This document shows, in pieces, positions 17,472-23,433 of a DNA stretch of 32,750 nt. The position numbers and the translations under genes were made by a program. The number at the start of each line of letters is the position of its first letter. Position 1 is the stretch's first letter. Source of the stretch: Alphaproteobacteria bacterium (GTDB lineage: Bacteria > Pseudomonadota > Alphaproteobacteria > Caulobacterales > Parvularculaceae); the NCBI GenBank assembly GCA_013151255.1, contig JAADIQ010000124.1, positions 1 through 32,750 on the forward strand, read 5' to 3'. The notes under the pieces were generated by a model, which was not told the DNA's origin, made no database searches, and worked only from the letters and a program-made list of their open reading frames with translations.

Positions 17472-17515
17472 TTGCTACAGCTGTCGCATTAGGGTAGTTT
17501 TGCGACAGTTGTAAC
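17472..17515 (+). promoter_or_regulatory. twin BlaI-type operators over a candidate promoter
   Basis: TACAGCTGTC (17476-17485) and GACAGTTGTA (17504-17513) each match the BlaI/MecI dyad TACANNTGTA at all but one defined position, with centres 28 bases apart. The wider arms GCTACAGCTGTCGCA (17474-17488) and TGCGACAGTTGTAAC (17501-17515) are inverted repeats with 13 of 15 matches. A possible promoter, TTGCTA (17472-17477) and TAGTTT (17495-17500) with 17-base spacing, is overlapped by the left dyad and abutted by the right. The site lies 58 bases before the BlaI-like gene, as expected for autorepression. Confidence 0.65.
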
Positions 17516-17572
17516 AGGGGGTCGGCCAGCTGGCTATTCGCCGCCCCGCTAAACCAATGGCTGGATGCTGCG

Positions 17573-17950
17573 ATGGGCGAGCGAATTTCTGATAATCCGA
17601 CAAAACCGGAATTGGCGATTTTAAAACTGCTATGGCGATCAACTGATTTGAGCGCCCGGCAAATCCACACCGATATCACCGAACAGTTTGACTGGTCCTA
17701 CTCAACGGTGCGCACCGTTCTGGAGCGCATGACCGATAAGGGGCTGGTTTCCAAAACGCCGATTGACGGGGTGAATATTTATGAGGCGGAGGTCGGCAAG
17801 GTCGCATTGCTTGGCCGCATGATCTCGGACTTTTCCAAACGCGTGCTTGAACTCGACGGCGCGCCAACGGCGGCTTTTTTTGCAAACTCCAAACTGCTTT
17901 CCGAAGACGAGCTACTCGAAACCGCGCTCAGCAAATGGGAGGATGAATGA
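17573..17950 (+). CDS. BlaI/MecI/CopY-family transcriptional repressor
   Basis: A 125-residue winged-helix protein. Residues about 10-80 form the DNA-binding domain: PTKPELAILKLLWRSTDLSARQI, a recognition helix around SYSTVRTVLERMTDKGLV, and a wing ending VNIYEAEV. The C-terminal part (about 82-125) is helical and would make the dimer, as in BlaI and MecI, which are inactivated by proteolysis after a membrane metallopeptidase senses beta-lactam. The stop overlaps the start of the M56-M23 gene by four bases (ATGA), so repressor and putative sensor-protease are made together. Two BlaI-type dyads lie upstream. No beta-lactamase gene is adjacent, so the regulon is unknown. Confidence 0.93.
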   Translation: MGERISDNPTKPELAILKLLWRSTDLSARQIHTDITEQFDWSYSTVRTVLERMTDKGLVSKTPIDGVNIYEAEVGKVALLGRMISDFSKRVLELDGAPTAAFFANSKLLSEDELLETALSKWEDE

Positions 17951-20115
17951 TGGCGTCGCTGATTGAACCGTTTTTCTACTGCCTGCTTGCATCAGTCGTC
18001 TGGGCGCCAATCGTCTTTCTGATTGCTTCCCGGTTTCATAACAACGACGCATCGTCGATGGCTGGCGCGCTCTGGCCCAGCGCGCTTTTGATTGCTGCGC
18101 TTCCAGCTTTATTGGCGCCGGTCGCCGCCGCGTTCGGCCTGTCATTACGAAACCCGGCGCCGCTGCCGCCGATGAACGCCCCGTCAATTGCCGCAAATTA
18201 TGCCCCCGCCACGCCAATAACCACTACGCTCGCGCAACAAAGCCCGGCGATGAGCCTCACAGAAATTCTCACCACTGTAGCCGGCCTCTATTTTTACGGG
18301 TTTATTCTATTCGCTATGCTCGGCGCGGTCAGGTTGATCTGGTTTTCATACCGCGTGCGTTTTGCCTATGAAGTCGATGAGCCCGATATTGATGCAGGCT
18401 TTGAGCAATGGCGCCAACGCATGGGGCTCGTCCGCACGCCGCGCTATGCATTCACCGATGCGGTCAGTTCAGTCTGCGTCCACGGCTTCTTCCGACCTGT
18501 CATCTTAATGCCGATGTCGTTGCTGGACCGCGTGAGCGTCAAGGACGCCATTCTTATGGGCGCACACGAGATGGCGCATATCAAACGCGGCGACACTTGG
18601 CTGTTTGCCTTTATTACAATCGTCAAAGCGGTGTTCTGGTTTAACCCGTTCGTTCACCACATCGCCGCGCGCGCTAATCTCGCCGCTGAACAGGCCGCCG
18701 ATGCGCTGGTGATTTCCCGCGGCGCCAATCGGCGTCAATATGCGCAATGCTTCGTTGAGGGCCTGCGCTTTGCCGCCGGCGCGCCGCGCGGCGACCACGC
18801 ACTGGTGCCATCGTTCACGCCGTTCGATAAACGCTCACGGCGCGAACGCCTTAACGCCATCCTGTCAAAAACCGGCGGCGCGCCATTGCTTGGCGCAGCG
18901 AACAAAACCGGCCTTGTGCTGAGCATTGTTGCAGCAACCGGGCTCGCCTTCGCCCAAGCCGCACTTGCGGTGGCGCCCAAACCGCCGGAAGAAGCGCTGC
19001 CGCAGTCGCCGCTAGACGGTGAAGTCACGTTTGAATTTGGCAAGAAGAGCAAGCTTCTCGGCGGCGAGCGCAAAACCCATGAAGGCGTTGACATCAAAGC
19101 CCCGCGCGGCACGAAAATTCGTGCAGCAGGCGGCGGCAAAGTCGTCGCGGCTACAAAGCGCTATAAAGGACAAACCTCCTGGGGCAACGTCGTTGTCATT
19201 GACCATGGCCACGGTCTGGTCACTCGCTACGCTCATCTTGACGGCTATGTTGTTAAAAAAGGCGACCGCGTCGATGCGGGCGACGTGATTGGAACTGTCG
19301 GCTCCACAGGCAAATCATCCGGCCCGCATTTGCACTTTGAGGTGTTGCAGGATGGTCTCAATATCGACCCCGCCCCAGTTATTGCCACGGCGCCTCTGCC
19401 GGCGCCAAAGCCGCACGCCGCATTGAAGCCCTCTCGCAAAGTCATGGTGTCGCCAGCGCCGGCGATCATCGCACAGCCGCCTCGGCTAGTATCACCAAAC
19501 GAGACTGCGCCTTATGTCGTCCGCGTTCGCGCCAACCACAATCACAGCCTGGATGAAAAACTGGAAAAAAGGCTCGCCGGCAAGCGTGCGAAAATAGAAG
19601 AACGCCTTCGCGAACAATTTCAGGAATTCCGAGCCCTTTCCACATCAGGCGAGTTCGATTTTGACTTCGATGAATTAGAGTCTGACGCCCAAACGGTGTT
19701 TGAAGACTTTGCAGACACCATTGGCGATTTGGATTTTCAATTCGCCGGCCTTGATGAATTGAACATTGTGATGCCTGAAATCGCGTCTCTCGGCGAGGCT
19801 TTTAAGCTGAGCGACAAAGACCGCGCAGAAATCCGCCGAATTAAGGAAGAGGTCATTCGCGAAACCGCCCGTGCGAAACGGGAGATAAAAATAGAAATCA
19901 AACGCGCCCGGAACGTACGTAAACGCGAGATGCGCGAAGTTGAACGTGAGCGCGCCGAAGCGATGAAAGATGCTCGTTTCGACCGCGAAGAAATGCTGGC
20001 GCTTCGCGAGCAGGCGCTGGAGGAAGCTCAAATTGCGCTCGAACAAGAACGTGTAGAGATAGAACGCATGCGCGCCGAATTGAAGCGTCAAAAACGAGAT
20101 CAAAAGAGCAAATAG
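17947..20115 (+). CDS. BlaR1-like M56 metallopeptidase fused to an M23 peptidoglycan endopeptidase and charged helical tail
   Basis: A 722-residue multi-domain protein. The N-terminal M56 part has helices at about 8-28, 41-63 and 108-134, then zinc motif HEMAH (207-211) with a likely third ligand Glu248 in NLAAEQAADAL, and a helix at about 217-236. A last helix at about 322-342 leads to the periplasm. Residues about 358-475 form an M23/LytM domain with every catalytic residue: His378 and Asp382 (HEGVD), His430 (RYAHL), His461 and His463 (HLHFE). A proline-rich linker (476-525) precedes an extremely charged Glu/Arg/Lys helix (about 535-555 and 620-722), probably a coiled coil or single alpha-helix. 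In BlaR1 a penicillin-binding sensor occupies the place of the M23 domain. NCBI-style labels such as M23/M56 family exist, but I know of no functional study. Confidence 0.92.
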   Translation: MMASLIEPFFYCLLASVVWAPIVFLIASRFHNNDASSMAGALWPSALLIAALPALLAPVAAAFGLSLRNPAPLPPMNAPSIAANYAPATPITTTLAQQSPAMSLTEILTTVAGLYFYGFILFAMLGAVRLIWFSYRVRFAYEVDEPDIDAGFEQWRQRMGLVRTPRYAFTDAVSSVCVHGFFRPVILMPMSLLDRVSVKDAILMGAHEMAHIKRGDTWLFAFITIVKAVFWFNPFVHHIAARANLAAEQAADALVISRGANRRQYAQCFVEGLRFAAGAPRGDHALVPSFTPFDKRSRRERLNAILSKTGGAPLLGAANKTGLVLSIVAATGLAFAQAALAVAPKPPEEALPQSPLDGEVTFEFGKKSKLLGGERKTHEGVDIKAPRGTKIRAAGGGKVVAATKRYKGQTSWGNVVVIDHGHGLVTRYAHLDGYVVKKGDRVDAGDVIGTVGSTGKSSGPHLHFEVLQDGLNIDPAPVIATAPLPAPKPHAALKPSRKVMVSPAPAIIAQPPRLVSPNETAPYVVRVRANHNHSLDEKLEKRLAGKRAKIEERLREQFQEFRALSTSGEFDFDFDELESDAQTVFEDFADTIGDLDFQFAGLDELNIVMPEIASLGEAFKLSDKDRAEIRRIKEEVIRETARAKREIKIEIKRARNVRKREMREVERERAEAMKDARFDREEMLALREQALEEAQIALEQERVEIERMRAELKRQKRDQKSK

Positions 20116-20128
20116 GCCATTGCGAGAC

Positions 20129-20410
20129 TTATTCGCGTTCGCCGAAACGGTCCTCAATCAGCTTGACCAGTGAATTAACCGCTTCGCTTGCTTGCGGGCC
20201 GGTGGCCGATATTTCAAGAACCGTGCCCTCGTTCGCCAACAACATTAACAAATCGAGTTGAGAATCGCCCGCCGCCATGCGGCCTTGATTGCGGACAGTG
20301 ACGATGGCGTCCCACGACCTTACCAGTGATGAAAAATGCCGCGACGGGCGGATATGAAGGCCGAGCTTGTTGATGATTTTAGCGCTGGCTGTCGCCGTTT
20401 GTTCGCTCAC
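20129..20410 (-). CDS. ptsH: phosphocarrier protein HPr
   Basis: A 93-residue HPr. It relays phosphate from Enzyme I to EIIA through His19 in NKLGLHIRPS; the usual HARPA is altered to HIRPS but His and Arg remain. Ser50 in AAGDSQLDLLML matches the regulatory serine phosphorylated by HPr kinase in other bacteria. The LMLLANEGTVLEISATG segment is typical of the family. The gene follows EIIA by nine bases. No sugar permease genes are near, so it belongs to the regulatory, permease-less PTS of alphaproteobacteria. It converges with the M56-M23 gene across 13 bases. Confidence 0.92.
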   Translation of the reverse strand: MSEQTATASAKIINKLGLHIRPSRHFSSLVRSWDAIVTVRNQGRMAAGDSQLDLLMLLANEGTVLEISATGPQASEAVNSLVKLIEDRFGERE

Positions 20411-20419
20411 CTCTGGTTC

Positions 20420-20830
20420 CTAATCCGGTGTTTCGCCGGAAAGAACCCACGAGGCGACATTGATATATTTGCGCCCGGCATCATGCGCCGCTTTGACCGC
20501 CTCATCGAGATCACCATCGGCCCGAACCGTTGCCAGCTTTATCAGCATCGGCAGATTAACCCCGGCGACAACCTCAGCATTGGCTTTCTCCATCACCGCA
20601 ATCGCCAGATTGGACGGCGTGCCGCCAAACATATCGGTAAGGATGATAACCCCCTCGCCGCTATCGACCTCCTTCGCGGCGTCAAGAATATCCTGGCGGC
20701 GCTTTTCCATATCGTCATCGGGCCCGATGGAAACGGCTCTGACCATTTCCTGCGGGCCGACGACATGTTCCGCCGCGGAGAGGAATTCCTCTGCGAGCCG
20801 TCCATGGGTGACAACGACCAGTCCAATCAT
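20420..20830 (-). CDS. PTS EIIA component, mannose family
   Basis: A 136-residue EIIA(Man)-type protein. The N-terminal IGLVVVTHGRLAEEFL contains the phosphorylated His9. LTDMFGGTPSNLA and NLPMLIKLA are the other family signatures. It accepts phosphate from HPr; in alphaproteobacteria this EIIA has no dedicated transporter and serves regulation. The gene lies 74 bases downstream of chvG, a gap that in many relatives holds hprK and rapZ. A perfect TATAAT in that gap may give it a separate promoter. Confidence 0.93.
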   Translation of the reverse strand: MIGLVVVTHGRLAEEFLSAAEHVVGPQEMVRAVSIGPDDDMEKRRQDILDAAKEVDSGEGVIILTDMFGGTPSNLAIAVMEKANAEVVAGVNLPMLIKLATVRADGDLDEAVKAAHDAGRKYINVASWVLSGETPD

Positions 20831-20874
20831 TCAACAATCCCGAATCAACACCGCTCATCTTATCGTGCGGTTGT

Positions 20875-20880
20875 ATTATA
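20875..20880 (-). promoter_or_regulatory. perfect -10 element between chvG and EIIA
   Basis: The minus strand reads TATAAT at 20875-20880, inside an AT-rich patch 45 bases before the EIIA start. No good -35 element lies at the right distance, so this is a weak promoter candidate. It would allow the EIIA-HPr pair to be expressed apart from chvI-chvG. Confidence 0.35.
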
Positions 20881-20904
20881 ATATGTCTACTAAAATCAGC
20901 GGAT

Positions 20905-22629
20905 TCAATCCGTAGGCAGCTCGACGATGAACCGCGCGCCGCGGCGCGGGCCGGCAGTAGGATCGCCCGGGTTTTCCAGCCGGTTTTCCGCATAGACACG
21001 CCCGCCATGGGAATTAATGATCTGCCGGGAGATCGACAGCCCAAGGCCGGAATTATTACCAAAAACCGCGCCTTTCGGGCGTTTGGTGTAAAATCGCTTG
21101 AAAACAGATTCGATATTATCCGGCGGGATGCCCGGCCCGTCGTCCTCGACAATGATGCGGGTCAAATGCTCGCGCTGGGTCGGCGCTTCGAGGATGACCC
21201 GCACCACGCCTTCCGGCGGACTGAAGGAGCGCGCATTATCAATCAGGTTGCGCACCACCTGGCTGAGCGCGGTCGGGTTGCCAAGCACATAGACCGCCTG
21301 AATGGGGTCGCGAAACTCGACTTTGGCTGTACCCGGTTTTGCGGTCTCGCCATACATCGCCGTGATATCGCCGATCAGCCGCGTCAAATCCACCGCCTCG
21401 CGGGTCTCGCGCGCAAGCTCAGCGTCTAGCCGCGAGGCGTTGGAAATATCGGTAATCAGCCGGTCCATTCTGGCGACATCGTTCTGGATGATTTGCATCA
21501 ACTTGGCCTGCTGCTCCGGCGTTTTGGCAAATTCAAGCGTCTCCGAGGCGCTGCGAATGGAGGTCAGCGGGTTCTTTAATTCATGCGCCACATCGGCAGC
21601 GAAACTCTCAATCGCGTCAATGCGCGCATAAATCGCCGCCGTCATCGACTTTAGCGAGCCGGAGAGTTCGCCGATTTCGTCGCGGCGTTTTGTAAAGTCA
21701 GGAATGCGCACGCGCCCCGTCGCGGCAATCCCTTCGCGAACTTTGTCAGCGGCAATCGCCAATTGACGAATGGGTTGGGCGATCATCGCGGTCAGCAACA
21801 GTGAAGACAAAATCGCCGCAGCAACGCCCAAGCCGAAAAACGGTAAGATAGCGACGCGCGCATCCTCAACCAGCGTGTCGATGCCGCCGCTTTCGGCCGT
21901 CACCATGCCGTAAATCGCCTGCACCCGGCGGATCGGCACCGTCACCGAGACAACCAGCTCGCCTTCTTCATTGACACGAACCGAGGCGGCGCCGCGGTCT
22001 TCGGCAAAGGGCGAGGATGACAAGGCTTGGTTGAGTTCCGCTTCTATCGTGCGCCGCGACGCCTGATCACGGTAATCCCTGGAGAAAAACCGTACAATCG
22101 AATACCCAACCCCATCCATACTGAACGAGCGTCGCTGTCCCTTCTGATCAATCGGCGGCAGCTCTTCGGTGACGATTTTATCTTCGCGCAAGACAACATC
22201 TTCGATCAGCAGGGCATCGGCATCCGAGACCGGCGGGTCTTCAAAGGTCTGCGGTGCATTGAAAATCCGCACCCGGCCTTCAAAGCTGTCCCACACCCGG
22301 TTGAACACCTCGCGCACATCGGTCTGGCTGAGCGCCAGCGAGCACAGGGCGGTTTCTTCACCAAGGCGGGCAATGTCGGCTTCATCGACCGGCTGGCAGG
22401 AGCTTTCGTCAATCGCTACCTGCGCCAGAACGTCGGCGATGATTTGCGCCTGCGCGCGCACGCCTTCGAGCTTGGCCTGAACCAGCCCGTCGCGATATTG
22501 CGTCAGCGCGAACGAGCCGATTAGCAAGATCACCAGGCCGATAAGATTGGCGAAGACGATGGTGACCGTCAGCCGTGACAACGCCACTCTTGCGCGGCGT
22601 TTGCGCACCTTGCCGCCCTCTCCGGTCAT
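20905..22629 (-). CDS. chvG: sensor histidine kinase ChvG
   Basis: A 574-residue membrane kinase. Helix 1 spans about 21-43 and helix 2 about 259-281, enclosing a periplasmic sensor of about 210 residues with cysteines at 78 and 96 that could form a disulfide. HAMP follows (about 282-335). The dimerisation and phospho-acceptor box FAADVAHELKNPLTSIRS has His349. The ATPase has N-box NLIDNARSFSPP (461-472), DDGPG (496-500) and GLGLS (528-532). ChvG/ExoS kinases respond to acid or cell-envelope stress and phosphorylate ChvI. It starts six bases after the chvI stop. Domain content and neighbours make the ChvG name strong, although the signal in this species is unknown. Confidence 0.92.
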   Translation of the reverse strand: MTGEGGKVRKRRARVALSRLTVTIVFANLIGLVILLIGSFALTQYRDGLVQAKLEGVRAQAQIIADVLAQVAIDESSCQPVDEADIARLGEETALCSLALSQTDVREVFNRVWDSFEGRVRIFNAPQTFEDPPVSDADALLIEDVVLREDKIVTEELPPIDQKGQRRSFSMDGVGYSIVRFFSRDYRDQASRRTIEAELNQALSSSPFAEDRGAASVRVNEEGELVVSVTVPIRRVQAIYGMVTAESGGIDTLVEDARVAILPFFGLGVAAAILSSLLLTAMIAQPIRQLAIAADKVREGIAATGRVRIPDFTKRRDEIGELSGSLKSMTAAIYARIDAIESFAADVAHELKNPLTSIRSASETLEFAKTPEQQAKLMQIIQNDVARMDRLITDISNASRLDAELARETREAVDLTRLIGDITAMYGETAKPGTAKVEFRDPIQAVYVLGNPTALSQVVRNLIDNARSFSPPEGVVRVILEAPTQREHLTRIIVEDDGPGIPPDNIESVFKRFYTKRPKGAVFGNNSGLGLSISRQIINSHGGRVYAENRLENPGDPTAGPRRGARFIVELPTD

Positions 22630-22635
22630 GGCCGA

Positions 22636-23331
22636 TTAGTCTTCCTTGTATTTATACCCGACGCCATAAAGCGTTTCGACGGCGTTGAACTCCTTGTCGA
22701 CAACACGAAACTTCTTCCGTACGCGTTTAATATGACTGTCGATGGTGCGGTCGTCCACATAAACCTGATCGTCATAGGCCGCATCCATCAGCTGGTCGCG
22801 GCTTTTCACAAAACCGGGCCGCTGCGCCAGGGCGTGCAGGATTAGAAATTCCGTTACCGTCAGGATAACGGCCTGGTCTTTCCACACACATGAGTGCCGC
22901 ATCGGGTCCAGCACCAGATTGCCGCGCCGGAGAATTTTCTTTTCTTCCTCCGCAGACGGCGTTTCGTCCGCCTGAGCGCGGCGCAGAAGGGTTTTCACCC
23001 GCTGCATCAACAAGCGTTGCGAAAACGGTTTTTTAACATAATCGTCAGCGCCCATGGTGAGGCCCAGCACCTCGTCAATTTCCTCGTCCTTCGAGGTGAG
23101 GAAAATCAACGGCAGGTTCGAGGTCTGACGGACCCGGCGAAGCAGCTCCATCCCGTCCATGGTCGGCATTTTAATATCCGAGACAATCAGATCAGGCGGC
23201 GTTGCATTGATATAATCAAGGGCGGCGGCGCCGTCCTCAAAGGTTTTTACAATATGTCCCTCGCTCTCCAGCGCCATAGAGATGGAGGTCAGGATATTTT
23301 CGTCATCATCGACCAGTGCGATCGTCGCCAT
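22636..23331 (-). CDS. chvI: response regulator ChvI
   Basis: A 231-residue OmpR-type regulator from ATG 23331, with GAGGG about seven bases upstream; a TTG two codons earlier is less likely. The receiver has acidic DDD (8-10), phospho-acceptor Asp52 in [13 protein letters not shown], Thr in FLTSKDEE and Lys in VKKPFS. The C-terminal winged helix contains [27 protein letters not shown] and ends [17 protein letters not shown]...VGYKYKED, the usual ChvI close. With ChvG it should control envelope, exopolysaccharide and acid-response genes. The pckA gene that often precedes chvI is absent here; phhB takes its place 102 bases upstream. Confidence 0.94.
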
Positions 23332-23433
23332 TTTCAACCCTCGTGTGATTTCAATTTCTTACTATGCATTGCGCCGGGCGCATAGAAGGCGCCGCCGGGG
23401 CCGGAATGTGGCAATTCGTCGTTAAGGCCCAGC

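Follow-up and report, generated by a model that had tools for sequence, protein, structure and literature searches.

The window, meaning the whole 32,750-nucleotide stretch analysed here (contig JAADIQ010000124.1 of the Parvularculaceae assembly GCA_013151255.1), encodes a protein in which an M56 protease domain is fused to an M23 peptidoglycan endopeptidase domain, together with a BlaI/MecI-type repressor. The genome that holds the window (G000) is Marinicaulis-like, belongs to a marine bacterial group, has 3.12 Mb in 131 contigs and is 92% complete. The favoured reading, with a probability of roughly 0.55, is a BlaR1/BlaI-type switch in which an M23 domain facing the peptidoglycan replaces the penicillin sensor, and which controls envelope-transport and efflux genes. 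It is supported by the domains, the catalytic motifs, the conservation of the cleavage positions and the predicted operators, all of which are read from sequence.

The fusion, its repressor and their conservation

The fusion and the repressor have the following features in the window:
17947..20115, plus strand: M56-M23 fusion protein, 722 amino acids (open reading frame, Pfam, residue conservation, predicted structure).
17986..18759, plus strand: M56 domain, residues 14-271, with H207EMAH211, D216 and E248QAAD252 (PF05569, E 1.2e-29).
18811..18816, plus strand: S289-F290, counterpart of S283/F284, where BlaR1 cuts itself (offset of +6, shared with the zinc motif).
18895..18966, plus strand: predicted last transmembrane helix, residues 317-340 (hydropathy, structure model).
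19075..19371, plus strand: M23 domain, residues 377-475, with H378, D382, H430, H461 and H463 (PF01551, E 1.5e-32; conservation; matches to M23 structures).
19813..20109, plus strand: predicted charged C-terminal helix, residues 623-721 (structure model).
17573..17950, plus strand: BlaI/MecI-type repressor, 125 amino acids (PF03965, E 1.2e-18; gapless alignment to MecI).
17876..17881, plus strand: BlaI F102-F103, counterpart of the Staphylococcus aureus BlaI cleavage site N101/F102 (alignment to MecI).

The first-pass annotation, made from the letters of the window, described a HEMAH motif at 207-211 in a BlaR1-like membrane body, a complete M23 catalytic set and about 100 residues of charged helix, and all three are borne out. 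Both Pfam matches exceed the curated cut-offs, and the window protein has every catalytic residue, namely H207, E208, H211 and E248 of M56, and H378, D382, H430, H461 and H463 of M23. In the NCBIfam scan the matches stay below threshold; they include a generic BlaR1 model and, among M23 endopeptidases, MepM, ShyA, and DipM. A penicillin-binding (class D beta-lactamase-like) sensor domain is not found in the fusion by the Pfam and NCBIfam scans, and M23 stands in its place. Because M23 replaces this sensor, the protein is an M56 relative and not a BlaR1; it may nevertheless work in a BlaR1-like way. The last 110 residues are 55% Asp, Glu, Lys and Arg, and residues 681-722 are the most conserved portion of the tail.

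By hydropathy, candidate helices lie at 9-27, 47-65, 107-137, and 324-342, and two weaker ones at 175-193 and 218-236. The AlphaFold2 model has helices at 3-33, 39-62, 104-137, and 317-340. Its M23 strands fall within 359-468, and a low-confidence linker and a tail helix of 99 residues at 623-721 follow. A Foldseek search with this full-chain model, a prediction that the first-pass annotation had proposed, matches M23 structures and also finds S. aureus BlaR1 (8exq_A) at rank 36 (E 8e-7, probability 1.00). The predicted topology is BlaR1-like, with the M23 domain on the opposite side of the membrane from the M56 site. It draws on hydropathy, the modest-confidence model and the match of the model to BlaR1 cryo-electron microscopy structures, and the orientation is set by homology alone.

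According to the accessible part of PMC9834060, BlaR1 has H201EXXH, E242XXXD, and D210, undergoes spontaneous autocleavage at S283/F284, and has a protease site that faces the cytoplasm in an N-out/C-out topology; BlaI is cleaved at N101/F102. The fusion has weak NCBIfam matches to the S. aureus BlaR1 model (E 0.0024, offset 6) and to the MecR1 model (E 0.00057, offset 3). The offset of 6 places H207/H211, D216, E248/D252, and S289-F290 on their BlaR1 counterparts; all are invariant in a 19-row alignment, and F290 is present in 29/29 rows of a wider homologue set. By its PF03965 match BlaI has the Penicillinase_R fold, with winged helix and dimer region. It matches MecI 11-115 without gaps, and hence F103 lies at the place of F102. 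This P1' phenylalanine is found in 30/30 BlaI homologues, while the preceding residue varies. The pattern of conservation fits a retained BlaR1 cleavage chemistry, and the M56-BlaI half should very probably work as in BlaR1.

The end of the BlaI gene overlaps the start of the fusion by 4 bases. In G000 this BlaI is the sole PF03965 match, and one M56 protein lies above the cut-off. The coupling to BlaI claimed in the first-pass annotation recurs in a genome survey, with a BlaI gene adjoining the fusion in 30/30 loci examined (L003-L032).

The fusion is intact over both domains in 23 of the 28 genomes of the genus (G000-G027). The G027 assembly breaks it into two frames, and a search of these 28 genomes finds no close copy in G006, G007, G010, and G015 (84-86% complete). 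G007 has, near C5:17392-19151, a divergent M56-M23-like match with two internal stop codons beside a BlaI-family match, which is possibly broken. The sister genera (G032, G029) have the fusion with a long tail; G028 of the same family and G036, G040, and G056 of the same order have it without one. A class-wide draw of 385 genomes, with at most four candidates scored per genome, has, among the matches listed, one that covers both M56 and M23 in G000 and G036 only. The closest named records belong to Marinicaulis and Parvularculaceae, and the isolate record of Marinicaulis flavus SY-3-19 carries the fusion (locus L043). Its matching genome, G023, has predicted sites at the tonB-like (L119) and DUF2807 (L199) genes.

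Residues were counted in 29 homologues, comprising 25 of Marinicaulis type and 4 that are more distant. The split fusion of G027 (L026/L047) is excluded from this count, and its BlaI and operators are used. The M56 and M23 catalytic residues are invariant except H430, with the M23 zinc ligands H378, D382, and H463 and also H461 kept in 29/29. The mean top-residue frequency over the 25 rows is 0.74 for M23 residues 359-476, the same as for M56 residues 141-316, and 0.33-0.52 for the tail. This conservation of zinc ligands and of residues in general indicates that the M23 domain is under constraint and probably binds zinc. The tail after M23 has 233-359 residues in the Marinicaulis-type proteins and 5-54 in the distant ones. 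Conservation as a fusion across many genomes rules out that M23 is there by chance or as a fusion artefact.

Operators and the predicted regulon

The predicted operators at blaI, and the tonB-like gene of the same genome, are as follows:
17473..17488, no strand assigned: predicted BlaI operator 1, TGCTACAGCTGTCGCA (conserved in the blaI promoters of relatives; exact pattern match; weight-matrix score 24.5).
17501..17516, no strand assigned: predicted BlaI operator 2, TGCGACAGTTGTAACA (28 bp from operator 1; weight-matrix score 24.0).
G000 C23:15036-15599, minus strand: tonB-like gene, with TGTTACGTATGTAGCA 130 bp upstream.

A palindrome of the TACA-NN-TGTA type is the BlaI/MecI operator consensus. 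The region upstream of blaI contains a dyad close to TGC[TG]ACANNTGT[CA][GA]CA, and predicted operator dyads of the form [TG]ACA-NN-TGT[AC] occur at blaI in 25/25 loci with upstream DNA. These loci represent 23 genomes of the genus together with G032 and G029; L047 is included, L004 and L033 lack upstream DNA and are excluded, and the set differs from the 25 Marinicaulis-type rows of the residue count. The operator lies at most 260 bp from the aligned blaI start in 24/25 loci and about 420 bp upstream in L038, and a second site (score at least 13) is exactly 28 bp away in 19/25. The weight matrix is built from 37 blaI-promoter sites, among them operators 1 and 2 of the window.

The strict pattern occurs 49 times in 27 genomes of the genus, blaI promoters included, against 3 for the reversed control. 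In the 194,847 bp scanned (the window, 13 fusion loci of more than 8 kb and two further loci), all sites of at least 13.5 are at blaI promoters, bar two just before RND pumps. A sigma-70 scan finds promoters at shuffle level, and a terminator scan finds 8 terminator-like sites versus 4.9 (standard deviation 2.2) in shuffles.

The predicted output comprises TonB, a TonB-dependent receptor, a DUF2807 protein, a lipoprotein and an RND pump, and was unforeseen by the first-pass annotation. The TonB_C gene (PF03544 in G024 and G000) has a predicted operator upstream in 23/23 orthologue loci, one per genome, with scores of 15.5-25.0. These scores are reached by 0/200 shuffles at each of the 23 loci; the shuffles here and in the receptor and DUF2807 scans preserve base composition only. 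Seven of the loci were first found by pattern search, that of G000 is also a pattern match with 2 mismatches, and the other 15 are independent. None of 8 more distant tonB homologues has an upstream site above 6.9 with the same matrix. The neighbours of the orthologues are an ahcY-like gene (by eye; 21/23, one via a weak match) and a sensor-type gene (21/23), with at least one of them at each locus and neither beside any of the 8 distant homologues.

The TonB-dependent receptor has a site in 8/8 homologues of at least 55% identity and in 0/7 of 33-39%. The 8/8 merges two scans, and three of the eight (G008, G012, G021) come originally from pattern search. The first scan, with extrapolated start codons, gives sites in 5/15 loci (L133, L135-L138). 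The rescan up to the first aligned residue is positive for L134-L140 and loses L133, where the query begins at the operator. A receptor of this kind is not found in G000 at E 1e-60. The best copy of the DUF2807 gene per genome (PF10988, E 7e-31 in G000) has a site of at least 10 in 22/28 genomes and of at least 13.5 in 19/28; 30 loci were scanned, the second copies L207 (G022) and L208 (G005) are left out of the 28, and the G000 gene was picked by its site. A lipoprotein-like gene has a site in G000, in G004, and, as a 35%-identical relative, in G032, while that of a 26%-identical protein in G017 is without one.

Seven genomes have this BlaI as their sole PF03965 match and also a tonB orthologue (G000, G002, G020, G021, G024, G025, G026). 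Because the tonB site is present in 7/7 of them, the operator is tied to this BlaI, and the assignment of the regulon to BlaI is probable on sequence grounds.

An AcrB-type RND pump (PF00873 in G032 and G029) lies directly 3' of the fusion in 21/24 genus loci. This is not so in the window and its sister L033, which have HPr after the fusion, or in L020, where the contig ends. An RND pump like this is not found in G000 at E 1e-100. Since the pump follows the fusion in 21/24 genus loci, the clade of the window seems to have lost or moved it. A site before the pump is also present in G032 (19.3) and G029 (23.2). L046:7418-11458 and L047:4217-8200 contain a BlaI-type site (13.6 and 15.7, respectively), the RND pump and then a membrane-fusion-protein-like gene (by eye), an order that suggests an older unit of blaI, m56m23, the pump and the membrane fusion protein. 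Window positions 20129-23337 contain genes resembling those of HPr and EIIA, together with a pair formed by a histidine kinase and a response regulator, all convergent to the fusion; we take the pair to be ChvG/ChvI-like.

Further sites were seen outside these genes. L170:1500-1515 (G029:C11) has a site of 20.3 about 125 bp upstream of a 103-residue frame that appears secreted and EF-hand-like by eye and is a possible further regulon member. G006 has a single pattern match before an esterase gene (PF00756). An operator-like site in nine genomes of the genus was dropped as a regulon member: it lies inside a MoxR-like ATPase frame (by eye) in 7/7 loci read, which leaves out G014 and G016. Eight genomes, including G000 (C25:3064-3079), have the same 16-mer or its complement, and G019 has a variant. 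The palindrome is probably a coding coincidence, yet it persists in G019 with a different sequence. Sites in a response-regulator frame (L094, L075) were likewise set aside as they lie inside a coding frame.

The role of the M23 domain

In the favoured reading, BlaI at rest would occupy the operators of blaI-m56m23 and of the tonB-like, DUF2807, and lipoprotein genes, and in relatives also those of the TonB-dependent receptor gene and of the RND pump gene that follows the fusion. On its Pro-rich linker beside the charged helix, the M23 domain would engage peptidoglycan. A helix rises 0.15 nm per residue, and the 99 residues would thus form an arm of about 15 nm that spans much of the periplasm. 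The last membrane helix would relay an altered wall or altered envelope spacing to the M56 site in the cytoplasm, and the protease would then clip itself at S289/F290 and BlaI at F102/F103. The loss of BlaI would then give an envelope-transport and efflux response, with blaI-m56m23 autoregulated. Binding and cleavage, the input role of the M23 domain and the kind of signal are inferences.

The input role of M23 is the weak point. M23 is favoured as a reader of peptidoglycan for three reasons: it occupies the sensor's position, its conservation matches that of the protease part, and no other recognised periplasmic domain is shared by the fusions examined. The first-pass annotation had proposed a route from peptidoglycan through M56 to BlaI; the half from M56 to BlaI is supported by sequence, and the role of M23 stays a proposal. 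A more specific form is tentative, with the odds against it: an active M23 would cut or grip peptidoglycan beside the charged arm, and this engagement would set BlaI proteolysis and thereby control TonB, the TonB-dependent receptor and RND efflux in Parvularculaceae as a one-protein wall probe.

Roles of M23 as an effector or as a scaffold are possible. As an effector, which is rather unlikely, the protein would be an endopeptidase tethered to the membrane; BlaI autoregulation would set its level, and self-cleavage by M56 might release or activate it. Local loosening of the wall would then accommodate large envelope assemblies, among them RND pumps and TonB complexes. The full catalytic set of the window protein, the zinc ligands in 29/29 homologues, the conserved autocleavage-like site and the presence of envelope transport proteins among the predicted targets are in line with this role. 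On the other hand, glutamine replaces H430 in part of the homologues, BlaR1 has its sensor at this place, and the system would otherwise be without an evident input domain.

The same glutamine, in 9/29 homologues, agrees with an M23 domain that binds without cutting. Such a scaffold, of the EnvC/NlpD kind, would bind peptidoglycan or protein and either anchor the sensor or recruit a partner. M23 scaffolding proteins are described in the accessible text of PMC9662197. The degenerate M23 proteins described there lack catalytic residues and/or zinc, whereas here the zinc ligands and H461 are kept in 29/29; a scaffold is improbable.

It is very improbable that peptidoglycan fragments act directly on BlaI, with M23 altering wall turnover and a dipeptide loosening BlaI from DNA. 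Such loosening by a cell-wall dipeptide is proposed for Bacillus licheniformis in the available portion of PMC3305447, where gamma-D-Glu-mA2pm binds BlaI and a related dipeptide binds MecI, and a wall-hydrolase fusion would fit. The half-effect published there is about 2 mM, and the invariant M56 catalytic and cleavage-position residues are not required by this explanation alone. That the system simply senses beta-lactams and regulates a beta-lactamase or penicillin-binding protein has only the BlaR1/BlaI homology in its favour and is ruled out as the default, as the fusion is without the penicillin-binding sensor domain and no beta-lactamase or penicillin-binding protein is among the predicted target proteins scanned with Pfam.

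Several observations weigh against the BlaR1/BlaI-type switch with an M23 input. Confidence in the AlphaFold2 model is modest (mean pLDDT 61.7, pTM 0.44), and its overlay on BlaR1 8exq_A is poor overall (TM-score 0.29 by query length, root-mean-square deviation 18 Å). The loss of M23 catalytic residues across homologues, which the first-pass annotation named as a counter-sign, is seen for H430 only, which is Gln in 5/25 Marinicaulis-type and 4/4 distant proteins. A site of at least 13 lies just before the pump in only 3/21 genus loci (L046, L047, L013; 13.6-15.7). The DUF2807 gene is clearly without a site in 6/28 genomes, and G014 has the fusion and no DUF2807 site. All three lipoprotein sites come from pattern search, and a close tonB orthologue is not found in 5/28 genomes (G005, G009, G011, G014, G015). 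The core is altered in many of the tonB and DUF2807 sites (e.g., TACT..TGTA and TACA..CGTC), where weaker binding or another regulator is possible, and 17/28 genomes of the genus have more than one PF03965 match. Because of the altered cores and these further matches, another regulator could contribute. G006, G007, and G010 (84-85% complete) keep the tonB and DUF2807 sites with no close fusion found, and the incomplete G006 assembly has no PF03965 match; their sites may reflect assembly gaps or a regulon that outlives its regulator.

Known systems and meaning

BlaR1/MecR1-BlaI/MecI of staphylococci and bacilli (MEROPS M56) resembles the present system in its M56 body, the HEXXH and EXXXD motifs, the linked BlaI, the predicted topology, the conserved autocleavage and repressor-cleavage positions, and the BlaI-type dyads at the blaI promoter. 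In contrast, the C-terminal domain of the fusion is M23 and not a penicillin-binding sensor, the fusion has an additional long charged tail, and its predicted targets are envelope transport and efflux genes rather than beta-lactamase or PBP2a. M23 endopeptidases (MepM, ShyA, DipM, Csd3, LytM) share H-x3-D, HxH, and the fold, and the window protein also has the third histidine. The fusion differs from them in its tether to an M56 protease and in the glutamine that takes the place of the third histidine in 9/29 homologues.

In the accessible text of PMC9662197, the H430 counterpart is LytM His260 and that of H461 is the proposed water-activating residue. The same text mentions an M23+M56 architecture, with M56 among the catalytic domains that occur together with M23 in less than 1% of hits. 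The domain pair is the same as here, and that text gives no function, partner repressor or regulon.

The Caulobacter envelope stress network (YjbI/UzcSR) controls TonB-dependent receptors and the RND pump AcrAB-NodT together, as described in the available part of PMC12864828. It relies on two-component systems and TipR, unlike the BlaI/M56 system here. The portions available of PMC2405808, PMC10470040, and PMC2529317 merely list genes of the M56-M23/BlaI-TonB kind. A literature search, with subscription papers and preprints outside its scope, recognised no paper on the function of the fusion or on a BlaI-TonB/RND regulon. An operator that blaI appears to share with tonB, TonB-dependent receptor, DUF2807, and lipoprotein genes is new here. 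The first-pass annotation also mentions a putative family label, 'M23/M56'.

BlaR1 is the membrane protease with which Staphylococcus senses penicillin, and BlaR1/BlaI is best known as a switch of beta-lactam resistance. The same protease-repressor core with another periplasmic domain and a predicted envelope and efflux regulon suggests a modular signalling family. The reading of the peptidoglycan state across the membrane is testable because an isolate, Marinicaulis flavus SY-3-19, carries the fusion, and the named operators, cleavage positions and target genes provide handles. If the wall probe is true, the state of the wall would have direct control over energy coupling by TonB, over a TonB-dependent receptor and over RND efflux.

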